From Solobacterium sp. (GTDB lineage: Bacteria > Bacillota_I > Bacilli_A > Erysipelotrichales > Erysipelotrichaceae), in the NCBI GenBank assembly GCA_017512725.1, contig JAFWEW010000044.1:1-64000 (forward strand): a stretch of DNA of 64,000 nt. Reading direction: 5' to 3'. Shown here in pieces: positions 17,416 to 36,484 of the stretch (its first letter is position 1; each line of letters begins with the position of its first letter). The translations under genes were made by a program, and so were the position numbers. A model generated the notes under the pieces. The model saw only the letters and a program-made list of their open reading frames with translations. It made no database searches and was not told the origin of the DNA.

Positions 17416-17940
17416 ATGCCGTCATTTGGTTCAAGCAATGGCAATTCCGGCAGCAAGGCAGGAATGCCCACAAACATCCAGCCGCAGGCTTCCGCAACGA
17501 AAGAAACAACAACGATGAAATCAATGGACACGATTGTTCAGGAAGTCATCCGCGGAGAATGGGGCAACGGTGCAGAGCGCAAGCAGCGTCTTGAGGCAGC
17601 AGGTTACAGCTATGAAGTAGTTCAGGGCAAGGTAAACCGTGAGCTTGCCAGCATCAAGAGCCTTGATGAAGTCGCAGCGGAAGTCATTCGCGGCGCCTGG
17701 GGCAATGGTGCAGAGCGCAAACAGCGCCTTGAAGCAGCAGGCTACAACTTCAATCAGATCCAGAGTCTTGTAAACGCAAAGCTGTCCGGCGGAACTGCGT
17801 CCGCAAGCTCTCTCGATGAGGTCGCAAAGAAGGTCATCCGCGGGGAATTCGGCAATGGTGCAGAACGCAAGCAGCGTCTTGAGGCTGCAGGGTATGATTT
17901 CAATGCGGTACAGGCCAGAGTCAACCAGCTGCTGAAGTAA
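17416..17940 (+). CDS. Triple CW_7 (Cpl-7) repeat protein without signal peptide
   Basis: A 174-residue protein made almost entirely of three CW_7 repeats. Each reads like SLDEVAxxVIRGxxGNGAERKQRLEAAGY, at residues about 37-78, 81-122 and 132-172. CW_7 motifs of the Cpl-7 lysin bind the GlcNAc-MurNAc-L-Ala-D-isoGln part of peptidoglycan. Here there is no enzyme domain and no signal peptide: residues 1-35 are Ser/Gly/Thr-rich and not hydrophobic. It starts four bases after murQ and must be in its operon. It may hold muropeptides in the cytosol, leave the cell by a non-classical route, or act after lysis; the sequence does not decide. Confidence 0.85.
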   Translation: MPSFGSSNGNSGSKAGMPTNIQPQASATKETTTMKSMDTIVQEVIRGEWGNGAERKQRLEAAGYSYEVVQGKVNRELASIKSLDEVAAEVIRGAWGNGAERKQRLEAAGYNFNQIQSLVNAKLSGGTASASSLDEVAKKVIRGEFGNGAERKQRLEAAGYDFNAVQARVNQLLK

Positions 17941-18418: not shown

Positions 18419-19120
18419 ATGACACAAGCGATTAGGAAAAAACTGAGATCAAACGAGGGTGCGTCACTGATGGTGGCATTGCTGTTTTTCGTGATGTGCG
18501 CAACTGTTGGGTCAATCATACTTGCGGCAGCTACCGCATCCAGCGGAAGACTGGCAAACCTGAGAAAGGAAGATCAGTCTTATTATGCGATTACTTCTGC
18601 GGCAGATCTGTTTGCGGAGATGATGGAAGATAAAAAAGTTGTGATTCAGATGAAAAAGACCGTTGATGCCTCGCCGACAGTGTCTGATAAAACCGAAACA
18701 GAGTTTTTAGATTTAGATAGCGAGATTTCAAAGCTGTTGTTGCCGAAAGTACTGAGCGATTATCTTTTGCCGTTTAATACTTGGTCCTATAATGCGAAGT
18801 TTCCACAACTTAGGTCGACCCCTGTTGATCCGACAGATATTGTTATCAAGGTTAAAGATAAGTATTCTTCCGCTGATTATGAATCTTTGACAGTAAATGG
18901 AAAAGTGTCAATGGATAAAGCGCTGGATTTAATTGTGGAGTTTAGCATTCCGGGGTCAGGTGAATCCTTAAAGATGAAGTTTAAATCAGTAGTGCAGGAA
19001 GAAGAAAAGATTAAAACGTTTGATGAAAACATGCAGGGAACGGACAACCCTGTTGATACACGCGCAACCGTTTCTACAAAAACATATACGATTTCCTGGA
19101 TTGATCCGGTGACAGAGTAG
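18419..19120 (+). CDS. Pseudopilin-like protein 1 (PilX/GspK-like)
   Basis: A 233-residue protein with a short basic leader MTQAIRKKLRSNEG followed by a hydrophobic helix, ASLMVALLFFVMCATVGSII. The Gly before the helix fits prepilin peptidase cleavage, but the usual Glu at +5 is missing, as in PilX/GspK-type tip pseudopilins. The rest is a soluble domain rich in charged and beta-prone segments. It is the first of four such genes in tight order. Predicted place: inner-membrane pseudopilus assembly, probably near the tip (inference from the missing Glu). The assembly ATPase and platform protein are not in the window. Confidence 0.65.
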   Translation: MTQAIRKKLRSNEGASLMVALLFFVMCATVGSIILAAATASSGRLANLRKEDQSYYAITSAADLFAEMMEDKKVVIQMKKTVDASPTVSDKTETEFLDLDSEISKLLLPKVLSDYLLPFNTWSYNAKFPQLRSTPVDPTDIVIKVKDKYSSADYESLTVNGKVSMDKALDLIVEFSIPGSGESLKMKFKSVVQEEEKIKTFDENMQGTDNPVDTRATVSTKTYTISWIDPVTE

Positions 19121-19129
19121 GTGATGCAT

Positions 19130-19453
19130 ATGATGAACAAACTTAAAAGTACATCCGGTGAAACCATAGCAGAAGTTCTTGTGGCCAGTCTTGTAGTGGT
19201 ACTTGGCATCCTGCTGTACGCAACGATGGTATCTTCTTCTTTCCGGATTGTTACAACAGCAGAAGATGCGATGCAGAACCTGTATAAGACAGAAAGTGCT
19301 TTTGAACAAAACAAAGAAGATGAAGAACTTGGAATAACACAGATAGCTGGCAAGGGATATATTTCTTCTTTCGATGGTATAGCAAAAAAAGATGATGGTT
19401 CATTAGACGTGACAATAACTGGGACGACAGAGATCAAAATATATAAGAGATAG
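19130..19453 (+). CDS. Pseudopilin-like protein 2
   Basis: A 107-residue protein with a class III prepilin-type N-terminus: basic leader KLKSTSG, then ETIAEVLVASLVVVLGILLY with Glu at +5. The small periplasm-side domain ends DVTITGTTEIKIYKR. The start is ATG 19130 (or 19133), served by AGGTGAT at 19119-19125; the previous stop overlaps this site. Size and position fit a GspI/PilV-like minor pseudopilin. It is separated from the next gene by only six bases. Confidence 0.65.
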   Translation: MMNKLKSTSGETIAEVLVASLVVVLGILLYATMVSSSFRIVTTAEDAMQNLYKTESAFEQNKEDEELGITQIAGKGYISSFDGIAKKDDGSLDVTITGTTEIKIYKR

Positions 19454-19459
19454 TAAAAA

Positions 19460-19993
19460 ATGAAGTATATAATCAACAAATTTAAAGACAAAGCAGGATC
19501 TTCACTGGTCGAAACACTTGCGACCGTTGTTTTGCTTGGAATTATGGGAATCGCGCTGGTTACCGGTATCGCAACGATACAGAATACCTATAAGAAAATC
19601 GTGCGCAAAGCCAATGAACAGACCATATTGTCTACAACGCTTATTGAAATGCGAAACGAAATCCGGAAATCCGTTGATTATGACGCTGGCCGATTCCAGT
19701 CAAGAGATGGGTATTGGTTCTCTTTCCGGGAAGCGGGAACAGGAGAAAAAGGTATTTATATCGATTATTACATGACGAAAGACGCAACTACTCCCATACA
19801 GAAAAGACCGGTTGTGAGTGAGGCAAACGGAGATGTGTCGAAGGTTTACTCCAGTTTCGGAGATGGAGGTGGAGTAAAAAAAGAATCGGACGGTTTATTT
19901 GTAATAGAAAAACTGCAGGTTGGAGAAGCCGGTTCTACGAACGTTACAAAAATTGATTCATATTATGTTTCCCAGATTACCAGAAGAAAGTGA
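19460..19993 (+). CDS. Pseudopilin-like protein 3 (GspJ/PilW-like)
   Basis: A 177-residue protein with leader KYIINKFKDKAG and helix SSLVETLATVVLLGIMGIALV; Glu at +5 is present. The C-terminal domain includes DGYWFSFREAGTGEKGIYIDYY and ends YYVSQITRRK, resembling the beta-rich domain of GspJ/PilW minor pseudopilins in size. Its stop overlaps the region just before the fourth pseudopilin start, so translation is probably coupled. Confidence 0.65.
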   Translation: MKYIINKFKDKAGSSLVETLATVVLLGIMGIALVTGIATIQNTYKKIVRKANEQTILSTTLIEMRNEIRKSVDYDAGRFQSRDGYWFSFREAGTGEKGIYIDYYMTKDATTPIQKRPVVSEANGDVSKVYSSFGDGGGVKKESDGLFVIEKLQVGEAGSTNVTKIDSYYVSQITRRK

Positions 19994-20001
19994 GGTCCCG
20001 G

Positions 20002-22119
20002 ATGAAGATGAAAAAAGACAGAGCGGGATTTACTCTTGCGGAACTTCTTATAACAATAGCAATTCTGATGATACTGTTTGGTATCGGTTTTGTTGCTGTA
20101 TCTGCATACTACAGAAACCTGCGCTTCAATGAGGTTGAGTCTATTGCGAAAGAGCTTTACATTGCGTCTCAGAACCAGCTCAGCAAAGCAAAAGAAAACG
20201 GCGTATTGGACAAGTATAACGAAACCTACAAGAGCGACAGTACACATTATCTTATCTATAACCGTGAAAACGATTATACGGCGGATGGAAACTACAAGGC
20301 TGAGAAGAATAATTATTTGAGAGAAGAGATGCTTCTGCCTTTTGGATCAATTGATGGAACGGTGCGTGAAAGCGGAACGTACATTATTGAGTTTGATCCT
20401 GTATCAGGTACGGTTATTCAGGTTTTCTATTCTGACAGCGGAAGGTACGGATATAAGAAATTTACGAGTTTCTCTGACGGAATAAAGAACCTTGCAGGAA
20501 ACGAAAAGAAAGAAAGCCGTAAGAACTATAACGGCTGTGTTATTGGCTGGTATGGTGGGGATGTAAGCGATATCTCATACGTGAATATAGATAATGACCC
20601 TATTTTGGAAGTATTCAATGGGAATGTTTTGTATGCGAAAGTAAAAGATGGAAGCTTGGATGCTGGCAAAGACCTGAAGGTCATGCTTTGTGTGAAAGGT
20701 CTTGAAAGCACAGCAACAAAAACATTTACAGTTACCGGAAAGAAAGACACAATTCTGAACAATGATTTTATCCTTGATGATATTACAAGAGAAAAAATGC
20801 ATTTTTCGGACATAAGAGCCGACTCTGAAGTCTTTATTCCGGGTGAAGATATTGAATTGTTCTTGACGGTTATGGCAGATAGATCTTTCAGTAATGTCAA
20901 AGAAAGCAACCATGTCATAACAAACAGCCTCTTCGATTCAATAGTCAAAGAGGCGGATAATACGGTTACTGCTCATATCTCGAATTGCAGACATCTGGAA
21001 AATCTGGGATCTGCCGTTTCTAAAATTGATTATGCCAGCCGGAATCTCAAAAAAGCGGAACAGGTAGCGGATCTGGATTGGTCAGAATTTTTGGAGGAAA
21101 CCAATAAATCGGTTTATGCAAATAACAGCGATTTTGGAGATAACAGCAATTTTGGAGATAACAACTATTATCCAATTAATCTGAGTACGGCATTTATGTA
21201 TGAAGGAAACGACCGTATCATAAATGGAATTACAATTACTATAAATACAATTCCTCTTGAAAATCCCGAAAAAACAATCCCTTTTGGTTTATTTGGTACA
21301 AACACGAATAAATTGGAAGTGCAGCATCTAGAATTAAGGAATTTCGTAATCAAATCAGGTGCAGGCACAGGACTAGCTACTACAATTTCAAGTGAATCTG
21401 CGGGAGCTTTGATCGGGAAAGCTTCTGGAGAGATTAAAGTGGAAGGTGTTGTAGCATATAACACGCTTAAAAATGAAACTGGCAAAGATAATGCTACGGA
21501 AATAGCAGGAACTGTTGCAGGCGGTTTGATTGGAACAATGAGTTCAGGAGAGGTTAAAAACTGTGCGGCTGCAGTTTATGTAAATGGTTCAAATGTTGCA
21601 GGCGGATTAATAGGGGAAATGAATGGTGGATCTGTAACTACGTCTTATGCGGGCGGACATACAATAAATGGCGAGTTTGTTAAGTTCAAAGAAAATGAAC
21701 AAGGGCGTTCAAATGTGTATTCAAAGAACGGAAGTGCAGGTGGACTTGTTGGAACAACTTATAGTAGTTCATCAATTACCAACTGTTATTCAACCTGTTC
21801 GGTTCAAGGAAAAAATGCATATTTTATCGCGGATAAGTTTGTGGATGATAAAGGAGAAGCATTATCCAAGAGCGGAAACAATTATGGTGCAGGATGGATC
21901 ATGAAAAATGACGACCAGCAGTTTCCGGATCTTGATATGAATGATTTCTCTACTAATATGAAGCATCCTGCCGTTTATTATGACGATTTCTGGAAAAATG
22001 ATTATTATCCTTATCCAGTTATCAGCGAAAAAGATACTTCTCAAACCGCATGGTTCCTAATTCAACACGTCGGTGACTGGGCACTGCCTGGTTATCGAGG
22101 AGACTTCATCAACGAGTGA
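20002..22119 (+). CDS. Large prepilin-type protein with GLUG repeats
   Basis: A 705-residue protein with the clearest prepilin signal of the set: KKDRAGFTLAELLITIAILM. The N-terminal helix and first approximately 130 residues (LRFNEVESIAKELYIASQNQLSKAKENG) resemble a pilin core. A long extra domain follows. Residues about 500-605 hold three GLUG motifs (AGGLIGTMSSGEVKNC, AGGLIGEMNGGSVTTSY, AGGLVGTTYSSSSITNCYS), otherwise seen in secreted adhesins and IgA1-protease-like proteins. ATG 20002 is served by GTGAGGT; an in-frame GTG at 19990 is part of that site. A pilus-tip adhesin is the most natural reading (inference). Confidence 0.75.
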   Translation: MKMKKDRAGFTLAELLITIAILMILFGIGFVAVSAYYRNLRFNEVESIAKELYIASQNQLSKAKENGVLDKYNETYKSDSTHYLIYNRENDYTADGNYKAEKNNYLREEMLLPFGSIDGTVRESGTYIIEFDPVSGTVIQVFYSDSGRYGYKKFTSFSDGIKNLAGNEKKESRKNYNGCVIGWYGGDVSDISYVNIDNDPILEVFNGNVLYAKVKDGSLDAGKDLKVMLCVKGLESTATKTFTVTGKKDTILNNDFILDDITREKMHFSDIRADSEVFIPGEDIELFLTVMADRSFSNVKESNHVITNSLFDSIVKEADNTVTAHISNCRHLENLGSAVSKIDYASRNLKKAEQVADLDWSEFLEETNKSVYANNSDFGDNSNFGDNNYYPINLSTAFMYEGNDRIINGITITINTIPLENPEKTIPFGLFGTNTNKLEVQHLELRNFVIKSGAGTGLATTISSESAGALIGKASGEIKVEGVVAYNTLKNETGKDNATEIAGTVAGGLIGTMSSGEVKNCAAAVYVNGSNVAGGLIGEMNGGSVTTSYAGGHTINGEFVKFKENEQGRSNVYSKNGSAGGLVGTTYSSSSITNCYSTCSVQGKNAYFIADKFVDDKGEALSKSGNNYGAGWIMKNDDQQFPDLDMNDFSTNMKHPAVYYDDFWKNDYYPYPVISEKDTSQTAWFLIQHVGDWALPGYRGDFINE

Positions 22120-22171
22120 CAACGAACAAAGCTTTAAGTAAAGCCTTCTGATTAAAAGGATGGTATGCATT

Positions 22172-25100
22172 ATGGAAAAGAAACTCATTAAAAAAGGAAC
22201 GTCTGTACTGCTTTCCCTCAACATGCTTATGGGAGGGATGATCTCTGACAGCAGTCTGCTGACAGTAAGAGCAGAAACAGTTGAAGAGAATCTGATCGAT
22301 TCTGAAAACAAGTCGGTAACGGATACGGTACCGGTACTTTCCTCTACGGAGACGAGAGATCTCTCGGGTGGAGAACAGAAAGAAATGTACCGTGTTGGTA
22401 TCATAGCCGGAGAAGAGATCTCACTCAGACAGATTCTGATTGAATCTGGTTTTCTGCGTGATTCTGATGTAGATGCATACCTCGACAGTATTGAATCGGT
22501 TGAAGTTAGTGATGTTGATGTTTTCACACTGGTCGAAGACCGGGATGACTATACCTTTATTGCAGAAGATCATTTTGATTCGGAACAGACAATTACGCTT
22601 GAAACTAAAAAAACGGTTTCTTATATCACCGTTACTGACCGCAGCAAGACCCCTGTCCGTGCGGTTGTAACAGAAAACGGGAAGACGGGTTCTGTGGCTG
22701 TTACCGCTTCCGGCGGAGAGCGCTTCAGTGACTGGGTAAATGTTTACGCAGATTTCAATCTGAACGATGCTGCGGTCAATGCGGTAACGCAGAACAATGT
22801 GCTTTATGCGGAATACTGCGGTTTCTCCGTAAATACCGACGAAAGTATTGGCAGCGGATATGATGTGTCGGTTGTATTCCCGGAGACTGTTAAGGGTGAA
22901 GGATACCGGCTGTTCTATGTCAGCGGTAATTATGTAGAAGAAATCTATGGCAATATAGAAACGACTGGTGATCCGAATAGCCCGGTAGCTGCCGGCATCA
23001 AGTTCCATACAAATACGCTAGGTAACTTTGTGCTTGCGTGCACAAAGACCTATAACTACTGGATCTCACAGGATGCGTTTGTATATCACCTGACCTCTGA
23101 TGATGCAGTACCGCTCAAAGAAGTACTGATTCAGTCTGGAATGGTCAAAGAAGAGGAAGCCGATCTGTTCCTGCAGAATGTACAGGGAGTTACATCGGAT
23201 AATCCGGATGTTTTGAAGGTTGATCTGACTGAAGATTATGAATGTGTAATTCATCCGCTGATTTACTTCATCGAACAGTCTCTGACCGTTGTTATGGCAG
23301 ATGGTCAGACCGGGATAATAACCGTTAGAGATGATCGGGGTGGAGGAATCACAGAAGCAGTATCCTATCCGGATAATATTGAAATTGAATCCATAACAAT
23401 CAGTCCGACAGAAGATAAGTTGCTGCCGGAAGATGCGGAAAGTACGGCAGAAGTTGTAGAAGGAACCGAATCCATTGAAGCGGTATCGGAAGAAGCAGAA
23501 GAGAATACTCCTGCTGAGGCAGTAACGGAGTATAAGGTTTTTGATATTGATCTTGAGAATGTAGAAAAACAGGAATACGACGGCTTTGATGTTGAAATGA
23601 AGCTGAGTAAAGAAGCGGCTGTTACCGGTGGAGACTTCAAGCTTTACCACATTCTCGATGATGGTACTTACGAAGAAGTTCCAGTCACTGTAAATATGAC
23701 TACGGATGAGTTTGGCAATGAGGTGGTAGATACCATTGCCTTTACGACACCGTCATTCTCAGAGTTTGTTCTGGTATATACCATCACTGCTTACTACAGA
23801 GAGGTCAATGGAGATACCTGGAAGATTTCGGCAGAATACAGTGCGGATGCAGGAATCCCTTCAAATGCACAGCTTTCCGTCACCGAGATCAAAGAAGGCG
23901 ATGAAGGATATGAAGGTTATGTAACAAAATCTGCAGATGCATTAGGAAAAGAAACAGAAGACATTTCATTTGCAAAGGCCTTTGATATTACCTTGGTGAA
24001 CCCGGAAACAGGAGAAGTATATCAGCCGGCAGAGAACAAAGATGTAAAGATTACGATTGAACTTCTGGATAACAGTCTGGAAGGTATTACGAATGTCGAT
24101 ATTGTTCATATTCACGGAGAACCCGAAGAGCAGGCAGAAGTATTGGGGTCTACTCTGGCTGGTGATGCAGTACAGTTCAATACCAAAGGATTCTCGGTGT
24201 TTGTAGTGACAGGAGCGAATGCTGTACCCAGAAGAACATACACGTTCTTTGTTCCAAATGAAGCTGCAGAGGGATACACTGAATATCACTTCACAGATGC
24301 TGACGGGAAAGATATAACAAAACAATATGTTAAAAACGGAGAGCTTCCGGTTATTCCTTCGCTGGAATCTACTGCTGTTAATGAATTTGATGGTTGGTAT
24401 AAGGGTACTATTAACGGCAGTGAACTTGTTATCGAAGATACCCCATTTGATTTTTCGTCCAGTTTTACAGCAGATGAGCCGGTTAATCTTTATCCGAAAT
24501 TTAAAGAATATATATATGTGAATTTCCATGATCAGTATGATAAAGACGCTGGTATTTTTCCGATTACCAAAACAAAGCGGGCGGAATTAATTAATGGAAG
24601 CGCAACGGTACAAATTGATGATGTCAGTACAGTTTACAGCGGCAGTCAAAGCGGCAAACTGGCATTTTATGGCTGGTCCTATGAACAGGTTAAAAATCCA
24701 GGTGATACGGGAGTGGTGATATCGGGTTCAACAATAACGGTAGACAAGACTACAGATCTGTATCCGATTTATGCAGGAATTCACTGGTTGAGCTATTACT
24801 CAGCAAAAGCAGGATCCGGTGCGACCTATTTTCCTTCTCATTACTATTTCGCAGAAGAAGGACCTACTAAACTACAGGTTCCGGAACTTGAGGGATACCA
24901 GTTTACAGGTTGGTGGACAGGTAAGATTATCACGCCGGAAGGAAGTACGGAAGAAACAATCGATTACGGTAAACAGGTATCGAATGCAGATGGTACCTTA
25001 ATTGATACATTAAATGAACCCTCTGTGTACTTTAGCGGAGGAAAACTGTTGCTGCGTGCAGATACAACACTGTACGCAAGATGGGAAGCGAAAACAACCG

Positions 25101-28100
25101 CTAATTACCAGATCATAGTATGGAAACAGGAAGCAAATTCATCTTATTGGTACGCAGAAAGCGATATTCTTCCGGGAACGATCGGTAATACGGTAGAAGT
25201 TCCGAACAGTTACAAAGGGAAATCTTATACAGGATATACGTATTCTCATTGTGATGAAGGAAAAAAAGTCCTCAGCGATGGAAGTACAGTTCTTAATGTT
25301 TATTACAACCGGAATAGTCTAAATCCTGCTACAGGAACGTTTAAGTTAAGGTTCGAAGATTCTATTACAGCGTCTTCGCAGAATCTTCCAATCGAAAAAA
25401 CAGGCCTTTCATATGGTGCAGACCTTACGAAAAAAATACCTGCAGATCCAAAATCATCCCGTACCGGCTATGAATTCGACGGCTGGTATATGGATTCAGG
25501 TTGTACTGTAAAGGCAAATCTTTCGACAATGCCAGACCACGATCTGACGGTTTATGCTGGTTGGAAGAAAGAGTGGTATCTGATTCAGATAGATCCGAAT
25601 TATGGATCCCTGAACGGAAACGGCTCTACATGGTTCTGGGAACAATACGGCGGAGATCCCATACAGGAATACACACATGTAACGCGCGATTATGAACAGT
25701 CCAGTTCAGGTAATTACTACTTCGTAAAACACGATCGGGCTTACTATGGCTACAGCGGAAAAGAATGGGATAAAAGTGAAAAGGATCGAGATACTCACTA
25801 TACTGTAAATCCTGGAGAAGCAACAGAAGATACGACATTTGAAAGTGCGCCTGGTATTTATAGTTATGAAGCCTGGTATGAAGTTAATCCAGACGGCTCA
25901 GAAACACTTTATAATTTCGATTCCAAAGTGACTCACGACACTATATTGAAAATGCATTGGAAGAAAGCCGGATGCTATTATTTTGCGTACTCCTGGACGG
26001 ATCCGCAGGGACAGAGTCACGAAGGATTACCACAGGGACCCTATTCAGATAATGCATCCATAATAATTACAAAATCCGTTGATGCTCCGGAAGGATATAC
26101 ATTTGCCGGATGGAAGATTCGAGGACAAGAGGCCGGAACGATATATAGAACCGGACAGTCTTTTACTCTGCACTCGGATGATGCGATTCGGATTAGTGGT
26201 AAAGAAGTGGTTTATCTTGAAGCGGTGTTTGTTAAAGTCGGTTTAGCGACAATTATTTATGATGCAAACGGCGGAACAATTTCTGAGAATCCTGACTTTG
26301 GAAAATTCCCGGGTGCAGTTGAACCGGTATCAGCTTCGGGAACTATTGATGGAACAACCGCAACAGTAACAGGGATTGTAAACAATTCTGATTTCATACT
26401 GAGTACTGGTGCTGGATTCAGCAAAACTGGCACAACCTTTGCGGGCTGGAGTAATAAGACTGTTTATGAGCAGAACAAACAGGGTGTAAACCTTTATGCC
26501 GGCGGGCAGACATATGGTGTTGATAAAAATGAGCCGATTAAACTGTATGCGGTTTGGGCGGTTAATGTTACTTATCATCTGAACAGTGATAACGCAGATT
26601 GGGGAACACCTTGGGATCCTACTATTTATACCTATGATGAAAATGCGAAAACATATACGCAAACATTGTATATTGGCAATACGGTTTCTGAACCGGTAGC
26701 GATTCCTCAATATACAGGGACGGATGGAAAACTGTTCCGTTATTGGAAGACCACTACTACTGGAACAACACAGTATGATTTTTCACAGCCATTAACAGGA
26801 TCAATCGATCTTTACTGCCATTGGTCTGAACCGGAAAGTGTTAAGGTTCACGCAGTTGATACCTCCTCGGAAACAATAGTAAGTAAAGATGATGCTTGGC
26901 TGAAAACGAATGCAGCGATACAAGCAGGGATCACGGAAACATCGATTAATGCGGACAGTGTTAAATCTGTTTTCAAAGACACTATCATTCCGGAAGGCAG
27001 CTCGGCTCCTACCGGTTATGTTTTCGGATTTGCGGCAGTGCATGACAGCACGAATCTGCAGAAGATTTCGGATGAGCGGGCAATCACGTCAATCTGGTAT
27101 AACCAATCCGAAAAGAAAACATATGTCAAATATGCCGATAACACCACTGGCGCTCTGAAAACCGGTGAAGAGATATATCTGGTTTATTATCAGCTGAAAA
27201 ATCTTCCTATCAAATATAGGAACATGTTGACTTCTGGTGAGTTAGTGATTGCACCTGTTACTGAAGCGCCAGATCATTCTGGTTCTTTAGGGAGCTGTAA
27301 TTTAGGAGCTGTTATCACTTCTCCTAAAACGTGGGCAGGTAAGACAAGCGGTTACTATGCGTATGCAATTGGTGATAAAACTGCGGGGAATGCATCTCAG
27401 CTGCACTTTATTTCTGATACCTCTGACAGTGATACTAGTCATCCGGATGTTCAAATCAGAAATACATGGAGAGGTCTGCAGTATTCTACAAATGAAGGAA
27501 CAACGTGGATTGATTGCGGATATGATCCGGCAATCTATACCGTATATTTCGAACAGCGGCCAACAGTCGTATTGTTCAGCGAACTTACTTCAGGAACGGA
27601 AAGTTCGTTGGAGACTGTTTTTGACTATGAACTGGTTGTAGAACAGACAGAAACGACCACGGCATCTGTTCAGAAACAGATTAAAAACGGAGAAACCTGG
27701 AGTAATTATGGTGAACCGACCTCCAGAGATCCGAAGACGGAGACAACATCTGTTTTTACAGGAACATATCACTTGAAAAATGGTGAATCACAGTCTGCGA
27801 TTCTGTTCTATAAGACGGAAACAAGAGCTCCAGAAGAAGGGGCATCATATTCTGAGGATGGAAATACATATAGGGACGTAACAACAAAAACGGTTGTAAC
27901 ATCTCAGACTGCAATCGTTACCCAGACAGAAAAGAGTGGATATGTAACAGAAATCGATACAGAATATGGAACAACAACAGATAACCATATTTGGACCTGC
28001 CCTTCTGACAGCGCAGGAGGAACAAAAACAGCGACATTCAAGAATACATTAAATACGGTTTCGATAGAGGTTCAGGTTGCAATTGTTGATCCAACTGGAA

Positions 28101-31100
28101 TCATTCGCAAAAACGCGTTTAGAAAAATCCCTTATAAATTTGATTTACCTATTGGAGAAACAAAAGACTTCCAGACTGCGCTGGATCCAGACAAGATGTT
28201 TGATGGCAGCTTGGAAATATATGCATTTGGTACGGTTTTATATGGTACTGATGATGGTGAAGAAGGTCATCCGATAACAGCAAAGAGCATGGATGTAAAG
28301 TCTGTTTCCTACCAGAAAGGGGCAGATGACATCTATAGAGTCACATTGGAAGACAGTAATGGTACGGTTCTGGATGAACTGGATAATTACAATGTTTACT
28401 ATCTCTACTATCCGATGCCGGAGATTCGATATGTAAAACTGGTTTCTAGTTCGGATCCTGAATCGGGTATGGAAAACATTTCCGGATCTTATGATGAGTA
28501 TAACCCGTCTCCTGAAATCACCTATAATCACGATTCAGTAATAATTAATAATGTTACGGTCAAACAGGATCAAACTGTAAAAATTCCTAAGAACGGTCTG
28601 TTAATCAGCCAGACGGGCGGACTGAACAGTTTCAGAATGCCGCCTCTTCTGGATGATGGGATTTATGCCAGGTATTTGAAGTATACAAAAATTGGTGCCG
28701 GTAAATATGATGCAGATAGTCTCGACGATATAAGTAGCAATAGTAGTTGTGAAATGCGTCTTCGGATTAATAACAATGCACTGCAATACAGTTTTAATGA
28801 TACTGATTGGTTTGATCTTAATCTAAGTGAAATACCAACGATTTATGCGATCTATGAAGAGAAAGGTTATGATCTGCAGATTTCGAAGACGGTAGATACC
28901 TCTGACAGCGGCCGTGATCCGATTTTTATAGATCGTACATTCGTCGTGACACTGACTTCGAATTCCATTACAAAGGCAGAGTATAGCGCCGAAGGATATG
29001 AGACTGAAACAATCTCTGCGACTCCGGCCGTGGGCTCTGAGCCGGGCACAATTGTTCTGGAACATGTTAAAGACGGTACAAAAATAAAGATTAAGGGATT
29101 GGGTAAGGGCGATTATGAGATCGTTGAAACAAATAATGAAAACTTTGTACTCACAGCAATGGCAGGTCCAATTGTCGGAGGATCCACTTCACCAATTGAT
29201 GTTTTTAACAACAATACAATCAACTTATCGCTGAATGAAGAAACTGAGCTCGATCTGAAGAACCGGCCGCAGGATCTTTGCAAAATAGTAGACAACGATG
29301 AAGAGCATATATTCTACAGGTTTTCTGATGCAATTAAATATGTAGACGAAAATATCCCTACTAATACGGCAACGATTGAAATGCTGGCAGATTATCTGAT
29401 GCCGGAAGAAGATGTGTTGACGATTCCAAGCCATTTAAATATCACACTTACAACTGCGTTAACCGGAGAGCATCAGTATAGTGGATCTGAAAGAGCGGTT
29501 ATTAAACGGAACCAGGATCACAAAACACAGCCGATGATCATAAATTCCGGAACATTTACGACAACAGAAATCAAAATTGAAGGAGATGACCGAACAGACG
29601 TTACTGCACCGGCAGTACAAAGTTCAGGAGACTTAACTTTAAGTGTTGGAACATTCATCCAAAATACACATAATTCCCATATTGGAGAGAATCCTGGTAA
29701 TGGCGGTGCTATAAATGCAACTGCAGGAAATGTGACGTTTGATGCTGCTACGATTACAAATTCAGAAGCTGTAAATGGTGGCGTACTATATTATTCCGGT
29801 AGCGGAACGATTACGTTCAAGGGGTCGTCGAAAATCAGTAGTAATAACAGAGCAACCAAAGGTGGTGCTGTTTACGTGACCGGCGGTACGATTGTTGTTC
29901 AGGGCAATTCACAATTAATGAGTAATAGAGCAAAAGAAGGCGGAGCAATCTATGCAGAAAATGGTGTTATTTCGGTTGAACAGAATGCCAAGATTACTGG
30001 TAATACTGCTTCTCAGAACGGTGGTGCAATCTATACTCGTACCGGTACTGTATCAATAACAAGTTCGAATGGAAAAATTTCTGATAATACTGCTGCTCAA
30101 AATGGCGGCGGCATCTATTCAGAATCCGGAACGGTCAATATATCAAATGGAACCATGTCAGGAAATAAAGCAACAGACGGAGCTGGTGGTTCAATATACA
30201 CGAATACAGGAACCGTTAATGTTTCGGGTGGCAGCATTAGTGCTTCAGAGGCATCAAATGGTGCAGCTTTGTTTGTTGACTCAACCGGTAAAGCATATAT
30301 CTCGGGTGGAACGATTTCAGGGAACATTTCGGGTGCTGATGGCGGAGCGATTGGAGTTGGAAGTACTTCTACCAGACTGTATTTCTCGGCTAATGCAATT
30401 GTAAAAGACAATAAAGTTAACAACGAACAGCATAATGTCTGCCTGAATCAGGATTCAGATATGGTCATAAATACTTCTGGATTAAATGCAGAAGCAGAAG
30501 TAGGCATCTATGTTCCGGGTAATTATGAAGATGATTTATATAAGCATCGTGGTACAGCAGGATCAGAATTTGCCACATTTACAAATGCGACTAATTTAGA
30601 CCGCTTCACAAATGATCGTCAGCCTGGTTTACAGGCAGTCGGTAATTCCGTTACAAAAACAATTCTTTGGGGAACAGCGGTTAGTGTTAAAGTTGTTTAT
30701 TTAGCATCTTATTCCGGAGGATTCCCTCCTTCGGATTCCGCTGTAGAAAAATATTCAAATTCGAATTATTATCCTATTTCCAGTGACATGGGTATTTCAG
30801 AGATAGCAGATGATCTCTATGATAATTACTCAAATAAATTAACAGCAACCGCCGTTTATGCAGGTGCTTTTGCAAGTGATGCAACAACGTTTGATGAGTA
30901 TGTCACAAAACTTACATGGGACAATGGCGCTCAAACGTGGATGCTGAAAGACCATAATGGTACCGGTTCTAAACTTAATGACCGAACAATCGTCATCTAT
31001 TATTCTGAACCCGCATATCTGTACATCGAAAACAATGAAGACAAAGAGTTGGAGATCAGTTCAATTGTTATCGGTAACGGAGAAAATGCCAGAGAAGTAA

Positions 31101-34100
31101 TTAATAATACTAATACAGCAGGTTATGGAATGGTATTTGCGAAAAATGGCGCAATCCGTTCGCAGTTACTTCCGGTTTCCAGCGATGATCTTAAGCTGGC
31201 TCCCAATTCAACCATCAGTATTTTGATTCCTGGTGGATGCGGTCAGAAGTATGCACTTACTGGAAAATTCAATGGAACTGCTTTTGTAGATAACGTCAGG
31301 CTCCGCTACAGTAAAGATGATGGAACGCTTGATGAGGATACAATCAATAAGGATCTAGCAATTACTGGTTTTAGTCTGGATAATAAGACGCTGAGAACGA
31401 AATCCGGGGAAACTTATAAGATCATATTTGGCGATGATAAGCCAATTTGTAAGATAGTTGTTGGTACAGATGAATTGCCTTTCACATCGATTAGTGCTGC
31501 GGTTAAATATATTAGCGATAATAAAACGGCATTAGGTAATGGTGAAGAGTATCCGATCCAGATGCTTACAGATTATCTGATTCCCGCTTCGGATTATGTC
31601 GATATTCCGGCAGGGCTCAAGATAACAATTACTACTGCTACTGATGGTGAACATCGTTATCATCCAGTAGATCCGGATGAACCTCGTGTAACTATCAGTC
31701 GTGATAAGGATAATAAGAACTCTATTATTTCTGTCACAAAAGGGTCTACAAATGCAGCTCCTATAACCACTCTAACAATTACAAATATCATCATTGATGG
31801 TAAGAACATTAGCGGTAACAGTAACGGTGGTGCAGTGAATGCGATCAATTGCAGCAGTGTTACAATCGATAATTGTGAATTCCGAAATGTTTACGCAAAA
31901 GATGGCGGCTCGATTTATATTGGAATTGACGGTAATTATAAGGGGGGAAATGTAGAGGATACAATTCTTACTGTAAACAATAGTAAATTCATTAAGAGTA
32001 ATTCTGAAAAATCGACTGCCAGCCGAATGGGCGGAGGTGCGATTCATACAACTACAAGAAGATTAACTCTGACAGGCTGTTATTTTGATCAATGTGAGGC
32101 ATACGATCAGGGAGGAGCGGTTTTCCATCGTATAGATAAGGATTTGGTATCGTATACCACAATTACAGATTGCCACTTTACAAATTGTCTTGCTAAGGCT
32201 GCGGGTGGAGTTGAGAGCGATGCAAAGTATGTTACTATTACGGGATCAGAATTTACCAACTGCACAGCGACTGAACGAAATGGCGGTGGCGTTAACATCT
32301 TTGCTTTGTACAGTGCAAATCCAACTGCAGAGTGTTGGGTGACTGTTACGGAATGTACATTTACAAATTGCCGTGCAACAATGCTGTACGATAAGGATAA
32401 TCACTATGGGGGTGGATTAAGAAGTACCGCAAAATACACAACTGTAAATGGATGTACGTTCACAGATACACTTGGAAAATATGGTGGTGCTATTGCATTT
32501 TCCAGTTCGAATGCCGCAGAAGCATATGTCAACGGATGTTCGATTAATGGAAGTATGTCCTCAAAAAATGGTGGAGGAATCTATAGTGCAGCTTTGGAAA
32601 CGGTAATTACGGATCGTTATGTGGATGGAGAAGGGAACACAGTAATCAAAACTGCAGAAATCAAGAACTGTTCAACAGAAACTGATGGTGGAGGAATTTA
32701 TTATGACAGAAATGCTGATAATTCTTCATTGACTATTACGAATGTGACGATTGATGGAAATTCTGCACCAAGTGGTACGGGTGGAGGCATTTATACCAAT
32801 GCCGGTACTACCACACTTAATAATGGAACTAGTGTTATGAATAACACCGCAAATGGGAATGGCGGAGGGATCAATGTCTATAATAAAAACAACAGTAACA
32901 ATCGGAAACTTATAGTAAATAATAGTACGATCAGTGGAAACACTTCCGGAGGAATGGGCGGCGGCATTTATTCGAATGCGCATCTGACTCTTCAAAATGG
33001 ATCGATGGTAGAAAACAACCGTCTATCTGGAGGAGCAATAACAAATGCAGCGGGTGTTTATTTAGAGAATAATCGAACATTTACGATTGGTAATGACGAT
33101 AAAACAACTGATAATACGTCTATCAAAAACAATTATTCCGCTTCTGGTTCAAAATCAAACCTTCGTTTATGGGAATCTGGTGCTAATAACCATAGCAGCA
33201 GTGTTTCTGTATTATCGAGTTTAAATGGTGAGATTGGAGTTGTTAATGCAAAGAGTGTTGGAGCGCAATTTGGTAGTGCTGTAGATAAAGATTTTTCAGG
33301 ATTATCAGATCAGAATTATACATTCAAATCTGACACCAGCACGCTTCATGGCATTATCGACCGTAACGATCTAGATGGGAAAAAGATCATTTGGGCAGGA
33401 CCTCCGATCTGTAAGATAACGGATGAACGTGGATTTCTGTTGTACTTTGATCCGGAATGCACAGACCCGGCGATTTTTGATCGCCTAGATGTTGGAGATG
33501 CGAATGCAGTAAGCAAAATATCTGCATTCAGTTTGTTAAGAAATGAAAATCCTGGTTTATATAACGACCAGGGACTTTATACCGGACCGACGTATCGTGT
33601 AGAAATGCTGGTAGAAGAGTATAAACCAACAAAGTATATTACTACGAAAGATACAGCTGCACGAACAATCATTTTTACAACGGCTTCTGCTAGCCCTAAG
33701 GATCCTAAGGATGATTATGCTTACAGGGGGAGCAGTGGAACGTACGCAAAGATTCTTCGCAGTACAGATTATAAAGATACTGGTTCGAATATGATTACTG
33801 CGAAATGCAACATGGAATTAACAAATATTACTTTGGATGGTGGATCAAACAATGGCGTGACTCCAAGTCTTAGTTCCAGAGCATTTATTTCAACATCAGA
33901 AAATGGCCATACGGTTACTCTTGGAAAGAATGCGATTATTCAAAACTCTTATACTACTGGTAATGGTGGAGGAATTTATATTAGCGGAGGTTCCGTTACC
34001 ATAAGTGGAGGAATAATCAAAAACTGTGGCACGACTTTAGATGGAGGTGCAATATATAAGACCGGTAGTAATAATACTAATCTGATATTTGAATCAGGAA

Positions 34101-36484
34101 ATATCGTTCAATGTAAAGCAGATGGAAATGGCGGAGCAGTCTATTACAAAAATGGCAATTTCATCATGTCTGGTGGAGAAATCAGCAAATGTGAAGCTAA
34201 AGGTAACGGAGGCGGAGTATATGTGGGGAATAATGATAAGAATTATTCTTTCACTATGTCCGGCGGAAGAATCATAAACAATACAGCTGTTGGAGCAGGA
34301 GGCGGAGTAGGTATTAAAGGAGGAGCAGTCCGTCTGCGTTTCTATGAAACACCGATTATTTCCGGTAATAAAAAGAGCAATGGAGAAATATGCAATGTCG
34401 AAGTAAATGATGGCTGGAACTGGGTCATTAAGGTCGTCGGTAAAGGGTTAAAGAACGGTGCTTATATCGGTGTTTATGTACCCGGTGACAAGGATACTGG
34501 TCATCCGGAAAACGAAACAGCTCCATACGCAGGGCATGGCAGAGAGCGAGAACGTTTTGCCAACTTTAACGATGCCGATTCAGATGTGAATATGAAAACA
34601 TTCTACTGTTTAGTAAATGATCGAAATGGACTGAAGGGTGGTCTGATTGCTGGCGTTGAGACAAATAAACCAATTTACTGGGTTAAGATTTTCTCTCTGG
34701 AGGTTCGGAAAGAAGTTGATGCCGGAGCAGAAAGTATTGATGAAAATGAAGAATTCAATTTCACAGTAAAACTGACAGGAGATGCCTCTACACCGGGACA
34801 GCCAAGTGCAGGAGCGATTGAAGGCGAATATGGCGGAATGACCTTTATTAGTCATGGAGATTATTCTGTTGCATATCTTAAACTGAAAACTGGAGAGTCT
34901 GTAACGGCAGAAAATCTTTCAAATGGACTCAATTACTCTGTAACAGAAGAACTCACTTCAGCGCAGGCGACAAAATATGCATCTATTCCAACGATGACAT
35001 ATTCTGGAGAAATCGGCGAAAATAATGAAAAACCTGGAGTTGATGAAAAAGACTGGTACATTTCTAAAGTGTTATTTAACAATATAAAACCGGTCTGCAA
35101 GATTACAACCGCTTCCGGAGCGCTGCTTTATTATAGATATAGCGATAATAAAGTGAATGCGCCGGCAGTATTTACAAACCTTCAGGATGCATTTAATACC
35201 TTGGATAATACGTTATATCAAGGTGCTGATATTACCAACCCCAGTTATGATGCAAATCAAGGATACCGTGTTGAAATGCTGGTTCAGAGTTATGTTGTTG
35301 AAGAAGCATTAACCGTTAAGTCTGGAAAGAAGGTTGTTCTGACAACCGCATCGAAGACTGCTTCGATGTTCCCGTTCCAGGGTAGCGGAAACACAGCAAC
35401 GATCCGACGCGGCGGATATAAAGATTCGTCGATGCTGACAGCGAATGGTGAGCTGACACTGGAGAATATTACGGTAGATGGTGCAAAGGGCAGCTACACC
35501 GTGACAAAAGATGGTGGTATTGTAAATGTACCTTCGGGCGGTAAGCTGACCATACAGGGAAACGCGACACTTCGTAATTCAAAAACGGAGGGACGCGGTG
35601 GTGCAGTGTTTGTTGCACAGAATGGTACAGTTGTAATGACCAGCGGCGTGATAAATCTAAATGAAAGCATCCTAGATGGTGCGGGAATCTATCTGTCCGC
35701 AGGCAGTAAGCTGCAGCTTTCCGGTAATCCAAGTTTTGGAGATAGTACGAACCGGTTTGGTACTATTTTGGACAATTCGGGAAATATCAAAGCGGGCGAG
35801 CTTGAAGCGAAAACGAATGGTAAAAAAGACTACCATTATGCGCATCAGGATATCTATATTGCTGAGACAGAAGAATTCCCGGCAAGTATTGAACTGATTG
35901 GAAATATCACCTCAAAAGAAGGGTCTATCTGGGTATGGGCAGCAACAGATAACCATTATCTGATGACGAAGCCGTTTGCCATGGTAACCGGAACAGATAT
36001 TAATGAAGCAACTTATAAAGTATTCCGTAACGCTAGACCTGACAGTGAAACGCTCAACGATACCGATGATTACCTCTATGGTACAAGTGAGGGAGATACG
36101 GTCGGATATGCTTATTGGAATAGCATTAAGGGTGAACAAAGAGTAGTTCTGCGAAAGAGAGATGGTGAAAACAAACCTCTTGCTGGTGCTCAAATGACTA
36201 TTCGCAGAGGAAGCACCACGGCACCACTTTATTCCTTAAAAGATAAAGATGGAGTATTGGTTTCGCAGCCACTTAATTCAGGTACAAACGGTGTCTTCTG
36301 GATCGGAATGTTGCCATATGGAACCTATTTCCTAGAAGAAACTACTGCCCCTGCAGGACATCATACAGGCTGGTTCTATCTGATTGTTAATGAAGACGGT
36401 GTGTATGAAGGAGGCCAGTATGGAACTTCAGGTGAGGCAGAAAATGCTGCTGCTCTGAAAAATCAGGAGCTGAAAAACAGTTAG
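22172..36484 (+). CDS. Giant secreted InlB/beta-helix/SpaA repeat protein (4770 aa)
   Basis: One uninterrupted frame of 4770 codons. A signal peptide (1-34, ending TVRA) is followed by: an N-terminal region to about 690; InlB-type repeats with FDGWY/FTGWW/LYARW motifs (about 690-1550); a SpaA-like unit near 2234 (DLQISKTVDTSD); and four modules that each begin CKI (about 2368, 3091, 3744, 4306). The modules run into Pmp-like GGAIY/GGGIYS beta-helix repeats. A second SpaA-like unit is near 4173 and a Cna-B/SpaA domain at 4654-4760 (ENKPLAGAQMTIRR, YFLEETTAPAGHH). No LPxTG motif or membrane tail follows; it ends KNQELKNS. ATG 22172 fits AAAAGGA better than an ATG at 22160. Likely a huge adhesin or matrix protein. 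Confidence 0.88.
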   Translation: MEKKLIKKGTSVLLSLNMLMGGMISDSSLLTVRAETVEENLIDSENKSVTDTVPVLSSTETRDLSGGEQKEMYRVGIIAGEEISLRQILIESGFLRDSDVDAYLDSIESVEVSDVDVFTLVEDRDDYTFIAEDHFDSEQTITLETKKTVSYITVTDRSKTPVRAVVTENGKTGSVAVTASGGERFSDWVNVYADFNLNDAAVNAVTQNNVLYAEYCGFSVNTDESIGSGYDVSVVFPETVKGEGYRLFYVSGNYVEEIYGNIETTGDPNSPVAAGIKFHTNTLGNFVLACTKTYNYWISQDAFVYHLTSDDAVPLKEVLIQSGMVKEEEADLFLQNVQGVTSDNPDVLKVDLTEDYECVIHPLIYFIEQSLTVVMADGQTGIITVRDDRGGGITEAVSYPDNIEIESITISPTEDKLLPEDAESTAEVVEGTESIEAVSEEAEENTPAEAVTEYKVFDIDLENVEKQEYDGFDVEMKLSKEAAVTGGDFKLYHILDDGTYEEVPVTVNMTTDEFGNEVVDTIAFTTPSFSEFVLVYTITAYYREVNGDTWKISAEYSADAGIPSNAQLSVTEIKEGDEGYEGYVTKSADALGKETEDISFAKAFDITLVNPETGEVYQPAENKDVKITIELLDNSLEGITNVDIVHIHGEPEEQAEVLGSTLAGDAVQFNTKGFSVFVVTGANAVPRRTYTFFVPNEAAEGYTEYHFTDADGKDITKQYVKNGELPVIPSLESTAVNEFDGWYKGTINGSELVIEDTPFDFSSSFTADEPVNLYPKFKEYIYVNFHDQYDKDAGIFPITKTKRAELINGSATVQIDDVSTVYSGSQSGKLAFYGWSYEQVKNPGDTGVVISGSTITVDKTTDLYPIYAGIHWLSYYSAKAGSGATYFPSHYYFAEEGPTKLQVPELEGYQFTGWWTGKIITPEGSTEETIDYGKQVSNADGTLIDTLNEPSVYFSGGKLLLRADTTLYARWEAKTTANYQIIVWKQEANSSYWYAESDILPGTIGNTVEVPNSYKGKSYTGYTYSHCDEGKKVLSDGSTVLNVYYNRNSLNPATGTFKLRFEDSITASSQNLPIEKTGLSYGADLTKKIPADPKSSRTGYEFDGWYMDSGCTVKANLSTMPDHDLTVYAGWKKEWYLIQIDPNYGSLNGNGSTWFWEQYGGDPIQEYTHVTRDYEQSSSGNYYFVKHDRAYYGYSGKEWDKSEKDRDTHYTVNPGEATEDTTFESAPGIYSYEAWYEVNPDGSETLYNFDSKVTHDTILKMHWKKAGCYYFAYSWTDPQGQSHEGLPQGPYSDNASIIITKSVDAPEGYTFAGWKIRGQEAGTIYRTGQSFTLHSDDAIRISGKEVVYLEAVFVKVGLATIIYDANGGTISENPDFGKFPGAVEPVSASGTIDGTTATVTGIVNNSDFILSTGAGFSKTGTTFAGWSNKTVYEQNKQGVNLYAGGQTYGVDKNEPIKLYAVWAVNVTYHLNSDNADWGTPWDPTIYTYDENAKTYTQTLYIGNTVSEPVAIPQYTGTDGKLFRYWKTTTTGTTQYDFSQPLTGSIDLYCHWSEPESVKVHAVDTSSETIVSKDDAWLKTNAAIQAGITETSINADSVKSVFKDTIIPEGSSAPTGYVFGFAAVHDSTNLQKISDERAITSIWYNQSEKKTYVKYADNTTGALKTGEEIYLVYYQLKNLPIKYRNMLTSGELVIAPVTEAPDHSGSLGSCNLGAVITSPKTWAGKTSGYYAYAIGDKTAGNASQLHFISDTSDSDTSHPDVQIRNTWRGLQYSTNEGTTWIDCGYDPAIYTVYFEQRPTVVLFSELTSGTESSLETVFDYELVVEQTETTTASVQKQIKNGETWSNYGEPTSRDPKTETTSVFTGTYHLKNGESQSAILFYKTETRAPEEGASYSEDGNTYRDVTTKTVVTSQTAIVTQTEKSGYVTEIDTEYGTTTDNHIWTCPSDSAGGTKTATFKNTLNTVSIEVQVAIVDPTGIIRKNAFRKIPYKFDLPIGETKDFQTALDPDKMFDGSLEIYAFGTVLYGTDDGEEGHPITAKSMDVKSVSYQKGADDIYRVTLEDSNGTVLDELDNYNVYYLYYPMPEIRYVKLVSSSDPESGMENISGSYDEYNPSPEITYNHDSVIINNVTVKQDQTVKIPKNGLLISQTGGLNSFRMPPLLDDGIYARYLKYTKIGAGKYDADSLDDISSNSSCEMRLRINNNALQYSFNDTDWFDLNLSEIPTIYAIYEEKGYDLQISKTVDTSDSGRDPIFIDRTFVVTLTSNSITKAEYSAEGYETETISATPAVGSEPGTIVLEHVKDGTKIKIKGLGKGDYEIVETNNENFVLTAMAGPIVGGSTSPIDVFNNNTINLSLNEETELDLKNRPQDLCKIVDNDEEHIFYRFSDAIKYVDENIPTNTATIEMLADYLMPEEDVLTIPSHLNITLTTALTGEHQYSGSERAVIKRNQDHKTQPMIINSGTFTTTEIKIEGDDRTDVTAPAVQSSGDLTLSVGTFIQNTHNSHIGENPGNGGAINATAGNVTFDAATITNSEAVNGGVLYYSGSGTITFKGSSKISSNNRATKGGAVYVTGGTIVVQGNSQLMSNRAKEGGAIYAENGVISVEQNAKITGNTASQNGGAIYTRTGTVSITSSNGKISDNTAAQNGGGIYSESGTVNISNGTMSGNKATDGAGGSIYTNTGTVNVSGGSISASEASNGAALFVDSTGKAYISGGTISGNISGADGGAIGVGSTSTRLYFSANAIVKDNKVNNEQHNVCLNQDSDMVINTSGLNAEAEVGIYVPGNYEDDLYKHRGTAGSEFATFTNATNLDRFTNDRQPGLQAVGNSVTKTILWGTAVSVKVVYLASYSGGFPPSDSAVEKYSNSNYYPISSDMGISEIADDLYDNYSNKLTATAVYAGAFASDATTFDEYVTKLTWDNGAQTWMLKDHNGTGSKLNDRTIVIYYSEPAYLYIENNEDKELEISSIVIGNGENAREVINNTNTAGYGMVFAKNGAIRSQLLPVSSDDLKLAPNSTISILIPGGCGQKYALTGKFNGTAFVDNVRLRYSKDDGTLDEDTINKDLAITGFSLDNKTLRTKSGETYKIIFGDDKPICKIVVGTDELPFTSISAAVKYISDNKTALGNGEEYPIQMLTDYLIPASDYVDIPAGLKITITTATDGEHRYHPVDPDEPRVTISRDKDNKNSIISVTKGSTNAAPITTLTITNIIIDGKNISGNSNGGAVNAINCSSVTIDNCEFRNVYAKDGGSIYIGIDGNYKGGNVEDTILTVNNSKFIKSNSEKSTASRMGGGAIHTTTRRLTLTGCYFDQCEAYDQGGAVFHRIDKDLVSYTTITDCHFTNCLAKAAGGVESDAKYVTITGSEFTNCTATERNGGGVNIFALYSANPTAECWVTVTECTFTNCRATMLYDKDNHYGGGLRSTAKYTTVNGCTFTDTLGKYGGAIAFSSSNAAEAYVNGCSINGSMSSKNGGGIYSAALETVITDRYVDGEGNTVIKTAEIKNCSTETDGGGIYYDRNADNSSLTITNVTIDGNSAPSGTGGGIYTNAGTTTLNNGTSVMNNTANGNGGGINVYNKNNSNNRKLIVNNSTISGNTSGGMGGGIYSNAHLTLQNGSMVENNRLSGGAITNAAGVYLENNRTFTIGNDDKTTDNTSIKNNYSASGSKSNLRLWESGANNHSSSVSVLSSLNGEIGVVNAKSVGAQFGSAVDKDFSGLSDQNYTFKSDTSTLHGIIDRNDLDGKKIIWAGPPICKITDERGFLLYFDPECTDPAIFDRLDVGDANAVSKISAFSLLRNENPGLYNDQGLYTGPTYRVEMLVEEYKPTKYITTKDTAARTIIFTTASASPKDPKDDYAYRGSSGTYAKILRSTDYKDTGSNMITAKCNMELTNITLDGGSNNGVTPSLSSRAFISTSENGHTVTLGKNAIIQNSYTTGNGGGIYISGGSVTISGGIIKNCGTTLDGGAIYKTGSNNTNLIFESGNIVQCKADGNGGAVYYKNGNFIMSGGEISKCEAKGNGGGVYVGNNDKNYSFTMSGGRIINNTAVGAGGGVGIKGGAVRLRFYETPIISGNKKSNGEICNVEVNDGWNWVIKVVGKGLKNGAYIGVYVPGDKDTGHPENETAPYAGHGRERERFANFNDADSDVNMKTFYCLVNDRNGLKGGLIAGVETNKPIYWVKIFSLEVRKEVDAGAESIDENEEFNFTVKLTGDASTPGQPSAGAIEGEYGGMTFISHGDYSVAYLKLKTGESVTAENLSNGLNYSVTEELTSAQATKYASIPTMTYSGEIGENNEKPGVDEKDWYISKVLFNNIKPVCKITTASGALLYYRYSDNKVNAPAVFTNLQDAFNTLDNTLYQGADITNPSYDANQGYRVEMLVQSYVVEEALTVKSGKKVVLTTASKTASMFPFQGSGNTATIRRGGYKDSSMLTANGELTLENITVDGAKGSYTVTKDGGIVNVPSGGKLTIQGNATLRNSKTEGRGGAVFVAQNGTVVMTSGVINLNESILDGAGIYLSAGSKLQLSGNPSFGDSTNRFGTILDNSGNIKAGELEAKTNGKKDYHYAHQDIYIAETEEFPASIELIGNITSKEGSIWVWAATDNHYLMTKPFAMVTGTDINEATYKVFRNARPDSETLNDTDDYLYGTSEGDTVGYAYWNSIKGEQRVVLRKRDGENKPLAGAQMTIRRGSTTAPLYSLKDKDGVLVSQPLNSGTNGVFWIGMLPYGTYFLEETTAPAGHHTGWFYLIVNEDGVYEGGQYGTSGEAENAAALKNQELKNS
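29700..34330 (+). repeat. Beta-helix GGA/GGG-I repeat tracts inside the giant gene
   Basis: Imperfect coding repeats of about 20-30 residues with GGAIY, GGGIYS, GGAVYYKNG and similar cores, in three of the four CKI modules (about 29.7-30.4, 31.8-33.1 and 33.9-34.3 kb). They are repetitive at protein level and diverged at DNA level. They predict a stacked right-handed beta-helix like Chlamydia Pmp or autotransporter passengers. Confidence 0.7.

Follow-up and report, generated by a model that had tools for sequence, protein, structure and literature searches.

What kind of pilus would be served by four tandem prepilin genes that stand next to a gene for a giant secreted protein, and does that protein belong to the pilus? 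The question is raised by the 64,000-nt stretch of Solobacterium sp. DNA that we analyzed (the window), which is part of contig C26 in a 2.72-Mb assembly that is 97% complete. A sequence-only reading had described four tandem pseudopilins, the last with a GLUG-type module, and had suggested an adhesin-capped short pilus leading a surface cluster with the giant protein. We consider it likely that the four proteins, here called K, I, J, and H, form the tip (priming) complex of a type IV pilus (T4P), and that this complex presents a giant adhesin that is not PilY1 and is either split from H or fused to it. The sequence-based evidence for this consists of the pilin signals, the conserved gene order, linkage to and co-occurrence with T4P genes, and gene fusions.

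Four minor pilins in a fixed order

The four ORFs at 18419–22119 are consecutive, all on the + strand, and tightly packed, with 0 bp between K and I, 6 bp between I and J, and a 4-bp overlap between J and H (Table 1). All four begin with class III prepilin signals, which read SNEG/ASLMV in K, STSG/ETIAE in I, DKAG/SSLVE in J, and DRAG/FTLAE in H (the slash marks the predicted cleavage site), and Glu5 is missing in K only. Pfam N_methyl matched H above its cut-off (27.7 vs. 21.2 bits) and J weakly, while the NCBIfam models gave weak matches of GspK to K (E = 0.004) and of PilV to I (E = 0.0017) and J (E = 0.022). ORFs, signals, and Pfam matches together bear out the description of four tandem pseudopilins. 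The AlphaFold model of K (pLDDT 83) is lollipop-like, combining an N-terminal helix of 69 residues with a beta sheet, and comparison of this model with the PDB using Foldseek and VIA-align gave no clear match.

Table 1. Features of the pilin cassette and the adjacent giant gene in the window.
Feature	Position	Strand	Details
K, minor pilin without Glu5, GspK/PilK-like position	18419-19120	+	233 aa
I, short minor pilin with Glu5, PilV/GspI-like	19121-19453	+	110 aa
J, minor pilin with Glu5	19460-19993	+	177 aa
H, modular minor pilin	19990-22119	+	709 aa from GTG; 705 aa from ATG at 20002
H pilin module (residues 14-205; helix and domain ~1-205)	20029-20604	+	conserved with relatives
H FnIII/Ig-like linker domain (~residues 193-315)	20566-20934	+	VIA-align Z ~7 to many FnIII domains
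H GLUG beta-helix module (~residues 313-694)	20926-22071	+	M26 IgA1 protease beta-helix fold
HVGDW near the H end (HxGDWP in nearly all relatives)	22066-22080	+	closes every H module; fusion joint to giant
Giant secreted protein, probable distal tip adhesin	22160-36484	+	4,774 aa; Sec signal; without LPXTG
Conserved C-terminal region of giant	35087-36481	+	ends in SpaA-like domain and short tail

Alignments with relatives showed that K, I, J, and H each have homologues. In two family relatives (G059 and G115), the four homologous genes lie inside or beside a T4P operon, with an H of ~2,500 aa placed before K. The whole 709-aa H recovered few relatives as a plain query, and we therefore used a profile of the H N-terminus, which recovered homologues of the full domain in 13 other genomes; the ORFs concerned range from 620 to 2,911 aa. 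The gene order in these genomes was mostly K-I-J-H, commonly beside PilB/T/C/D/M/N/O, and in a few loci H followed PilO, separated from K-I-J. A scan of 84,980 species genomes yielded 79 loci from Erysipelotrichaceae, Lachnospiraceae, Oscillospiraceae/Ruminococcaceae, Anaerovoracaceae, Carnobacteriaceae (Granulicatella), and Coriobacteriaceae, many of them from rumen or gut MAGs; most of the sequences are MAG contigs, and ORFs cut by contig ends were counted at their minimum lengths. Since the order was K-I-J-H in 45/45 loci in which the four genes lie close together on one strand, and since Glu5 occurred in none of 53 readable K homologues and in ~95% of those of I (53/55) and J (58/61), we do not attribute the four-pilin pattern to chance. 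The proposed resemblance to an ordered series of GspK/I/J/H-like minor pilins, the first without Glu5 and the others with it, is thus a feature of the relatives as well.

Two genomes stood out in other ways. In Granulicatella balaenopterae (L163), a 2,417-aa H is encoded on one strand and K, I, and J on the other, an arrangement unique among the loci. Solobacterium sp. RGIG4473 (G156) carries two complete K-I-J-H sets (L083 and L084). In one of them H has 685 aa and the giant (6,322 aa) is separate, and in the other H reaches at least 2,910 aa; these are possibly interchangeable tips.

H combines an N-terminal pilin module with non-pilin domains, as expected of a modular pilin. Compared by sequence, its profile matched only pilins in the PDB (solved T4P pilins), via the N-terminus, and Pfam Glug gave a single match slightly under the cut-off (18.3 vs. 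20.5). We modeled the structure of H (pLDDT 81, pTM 0.80) and searched with the model. Foldseek alone ranked weak cytokine-receptor (FnIII) matches at the top, and the IgA1 protease beta-helix emerged with VIA-align, which aligned 281 residues of the H beta-helix with 3n6z (Z = 26.6, rmsd 3.0) and gave Z scores of 18–21.5 against M26 IgA1 proteases (21.5 for 7uvk). The adhesin-type module that had been assigned to the fourth protein is recognizable in this model as an M26-type beta-helix. An open-access literature search for GLUG and pilins together returned no report, although an earlier description elsewhere is possible.

The HxGDWP motif terminates almost every short H; long H proteins contain as many as five copies, spaced ~600 residues apart, which mark duplicated modules. 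We considered whether it could be a docking tag for the giant and rejected this; because the motif also closes the internal duplicated modules of long H, it is more likely a module end cap. The longest pilin ORF encountered here, an H-like ORF of at least 4,144 aa (L170:9887-22321), has five HxGDW-type module ends. In the cultured strain of Aminicella lysinilytica, two tandem H-like modular pilins follow a complete T4P operon (L159:9800-18111).

The giant protein and its fusions to H

According to Pfam, the giant contains Flg_new repeats and DUF7601 and terminates in a SpaA domain. The giants of relatives comprise 5,099, 6,028, and 6,322 aa, and the conserved C-terminal region, which is 38–40% identical between distant giants, is present in most associated giants whose C-terminus is visible. 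A sortase anchor, that is, a C-terminal LPXTG followed by a hydrophobic segment and a positive tail, is lacking from the window giant, in a genome with three sortases. The giants compared end shortly after the SpaA-like domain, likewise without LPXTG, and the sole exception is a second large protein in one locus. This giant-like protein of 1,628 aa (L129:12824-17710), encoded beside K-I-J-H, has an LPHTG and a hydrophobic anchor.

In 31 of the 41 resolvable short-H loci, a homologue of the giant adjoins K-I-J-H, on the downstream side after H in 17 cases and on the upstream side before K in 14; none is within reach in the remaining 10. Among loci with a long or fused H, a separate giant was found in 2/18, compared with the 31/41 for short H (p = 6e-6, uncorrected for phylogeny). 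Both a long H and a giant are present in L132 and L140.

In three families, H and the giant are fused in frame, and the giant's signal peptide is missing. In Solobacterium (L115/L093), the reading frame continues from a complete H, THYGDWP terminus included, into the part of the giant that follows the signal peptide. In Oscillospiraceae (L156), the fusion is a complete ORF of 2,901 aa in which N_methyl, Flg_new, and SpaA all score above the Pfam cut-offs, and in Coriobacteriaceae (L174) more than 2,000 residues of an open ORF that is at least 4,010 aa long are homologous to the giant. A further candidate, L142, appears frame-broken and was not counted as proof of fusion. We also asked whether the fusions in L115, L156, and L174 could be artefacts of a lost stop codon or a frameshift, and rejected this because no signal peptide of the giant remains at the joints and because the L156 ORF is open and complete. 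In a tree of the H domain, fused rows fall into different groups among split relatives, and the best tree has four changes; if only its well-supported branches are counted, a single fusion event suffices.

These observations bear on the rival explanation that survives best, namely that the giant acts on its own as a secreted or wall-bound adhesin and is merely co-expressed with the tip complex. Many ordinary Gram-positive surface proteins carry Flg_new and SpaA domains, and the presence of these domains in the giant would fit such a role, as would its own Sec signal and the location of its gene on either side of the cassette; it could also bind the cell wall through an unrecognised domain. However, in-frame H fusions in three families, the almost complete lack of LPXTG, and the depletion of separate giants where H is long count against an independent protein, and we judge this explanation unlikely. 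Given the fusions, the giant probably belongs to the same tip assembly as K-I-J-H. Of the idea that the pilins lead a surface cluster containing the giant, then, the link is retained, but the giant is not a mere follower.

Other genes in the window also encode surface-type or wall-related proteins. The gene directly after the giant (36596-38833) encodes a secreted protein of 745 aa that has CHAP and PASTA domains and is of the wall hydrolase type. A 174-aa protein encoded at 17416-17940, next to a SIS-domain (MurQ-like) gene, consists almost entirely of three CW_7 (Cpl-7) wall-binding repeats and has no catalytic domain. Another large surface-type protein, encoded by a 1,623-aa ORF at 47471-52342, carries a Flg_new_2 (InlB B-repeat) domain.

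The pilus that the cassette would serve

The window encodes no assembly ATPase or peptidase, as had been stated, but both are present elsewhere in the genome. Contig C19 carries a T4P operon with PilB (E = 8.9e-127 in the genome search), PilT, PilC, several major pilins, PilD, PilM, and PilN/O-like genes, while contig C5 carries a smaller, Com-type set with an ATPase, a platform, and pilins. No further ATPase or platform was found in the genome, and neither a second K gene (K is single-copy) nor a second full H domain. The sequence-only reading had called for a genome search for PilB, PilC, and PilD; all three were found, together with PilT, and hence also the prepilin peptidase on which the proposal depended.

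We surveyed 70 genomes of the genus, 11 of which have a full T4P PilC. A full H domain (E < 1e-24) was present in 9 of these 11 and in 0 of the 59 others (Fisher's test, which ignores shared ancestry, 8e-10). Two genomes, G183 and G214, have T4P PilC and no full H match, possibly reflecting assembly gaps, and three (G155, G173, and G211) have only a distant, apparently Com-like platform match and lack H. K-I-J-H is genetically linked to PilB/PilC/PilD/PilMNO and co-occurs with them. Judging from the gene order and this co-occurrence in relatives, the cassette most likely supplies the tip (priming) pilins for an ordinary retractile T4P whose other genes lie elsewhere in this genome, and the assignment of the four pilins to the tip is a strong one.

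We weighed three other explanations. One is that K-I-J-H builds a separate short T2SS-like pseudopilus with its own machinery, and here K does lack Glu5 like GspK and the set does stand alone on its contig. However, the only ATPases and platforms are those of the C19 T4P and the C5 Com set, and relatives keep their sets in T4P operons with PilT; we regard a separate pseudopilus as very improbable. The adhesin-capped short pilus envisaged earlier is thus upheld as to its adhesin module but not as to a separate short pilus, and the proposed survey of gene order in relatives returned an invariant K-I-J-H cassette, located in complete T4P operons. Service to the competence (Com) pilus is less probable again: C5 does offer a Com-type locus that encodes an ATPase, a platform, and pilins, but H tracks T4P PilC, and the three genomes with only an apparently Com-like platform match are without H. 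Least credible of all is that H is an IgA1-protease-like enzyme displayed on the pilus, since, for all the M26 fold of its beta-helix, neither an HExxH metalloprotease motif nor any protease domain was found in H or the giant.

A proposed tip complex and its counterparts

We propose that the C19 set supplies the motor, platform, peptidase, and major pilins for a pilus tipped by K-I-J-H. K, without Glu5, would be the first and topmost subunit, followed by I and J, and the pilin domain of H would sit inside the complex, with the FnIII-like domain and the IgA1-protease-type beta-helix of H protruding from the tip. The giant, exported by Sec and without a sortase motif, would be held non-covalently on the distal end of H as an adhesive head. 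Extension by PilB would carry the giant head foremost, and once the head had bound, PilT would pull the pilus back. We infer cleavage by the peptidase, location at the tip, physical attachment of the giant to H, adhesion as the function, and a ligand.

The T4P tip of monoderms is known mainly from Streptococcus sanguinis. Extending the argument to the other loci, we think it reasonably probable that this is a widespread T4P tip system of monoderm gut and rumen bacteria, in which the giant adhesin borne by K-I-J-H runs to several thousand residues. Whether made as a single chain with H or secreted by Sec as a partner of its own, this adhesin would act as a functional counterpart of PilY1 unrelated to it in sequence. 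PilC/PilY1 has been stated to be absent in monoderms, and the giant, if this is true, would supply the large non-pilin tip partner said to be missing there (PMC9934059). Modular pilins would also reach more than 4,000 residues, compared with 860 for the protein singled out as the most extreme multi-domain example in an earlier account (PMC8179133), and there would be candidates for the means by which anaerobes of the rumen and gut attach to fibre, mucus, or other cells.

Among known systems, the PilABC tip complex of S. sanguinis, with its modular PilB (vWA) and PilC (lectin), is similar in being part of a monoderm T4P with minor pilins predicted at the tip, in having one pilin without Glu5, and in having adhesive modules grafted onto a pilin domain (PMC8179133, PMC9934059); its modular pilins take the adhesive role (PMC9934059). 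It differs in having three minor pilins rather than four and modular pilins of ~50 kDa as opposed to 700 to more than 4,100 aa, and a linked giant partner has not been described for it. In layout the giant also recalls CofJ of the ETEC T4bP, an adhesive protein that is secreted separately and carried by the modular tip pilin CofB (PMC8179133, PMC10191384), but the CofB-CofJ system lacks an HIJK set, and neither fusion nor giant size has been described for it. M26 IgA1 proteases share the beta-helix (GLUG) fold of the H module, which here is borne by a pilin and comes without the metalloprotease domain.

The layout also resembles that of diderm T4aP, where four minor pilins (PilHIJK, K without Glu5) lie at the tip and are capped by PilC/PilY1, a large Sec-secreted non-pilin (PMC7541494, PMC10191384). 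The giant, too, is a large Sec-exported protein encoded with minor pilins, although the likeness is one of analogy only: unlike PilC/PilY1, it has no match to the PilY1 beta-propeller domain (PF05567), nor do its neighbours; with its relatives it spans 4,774–6,322 aa, and in some species it is fused to H. What is new here is the linked giant of 4,774 aa.
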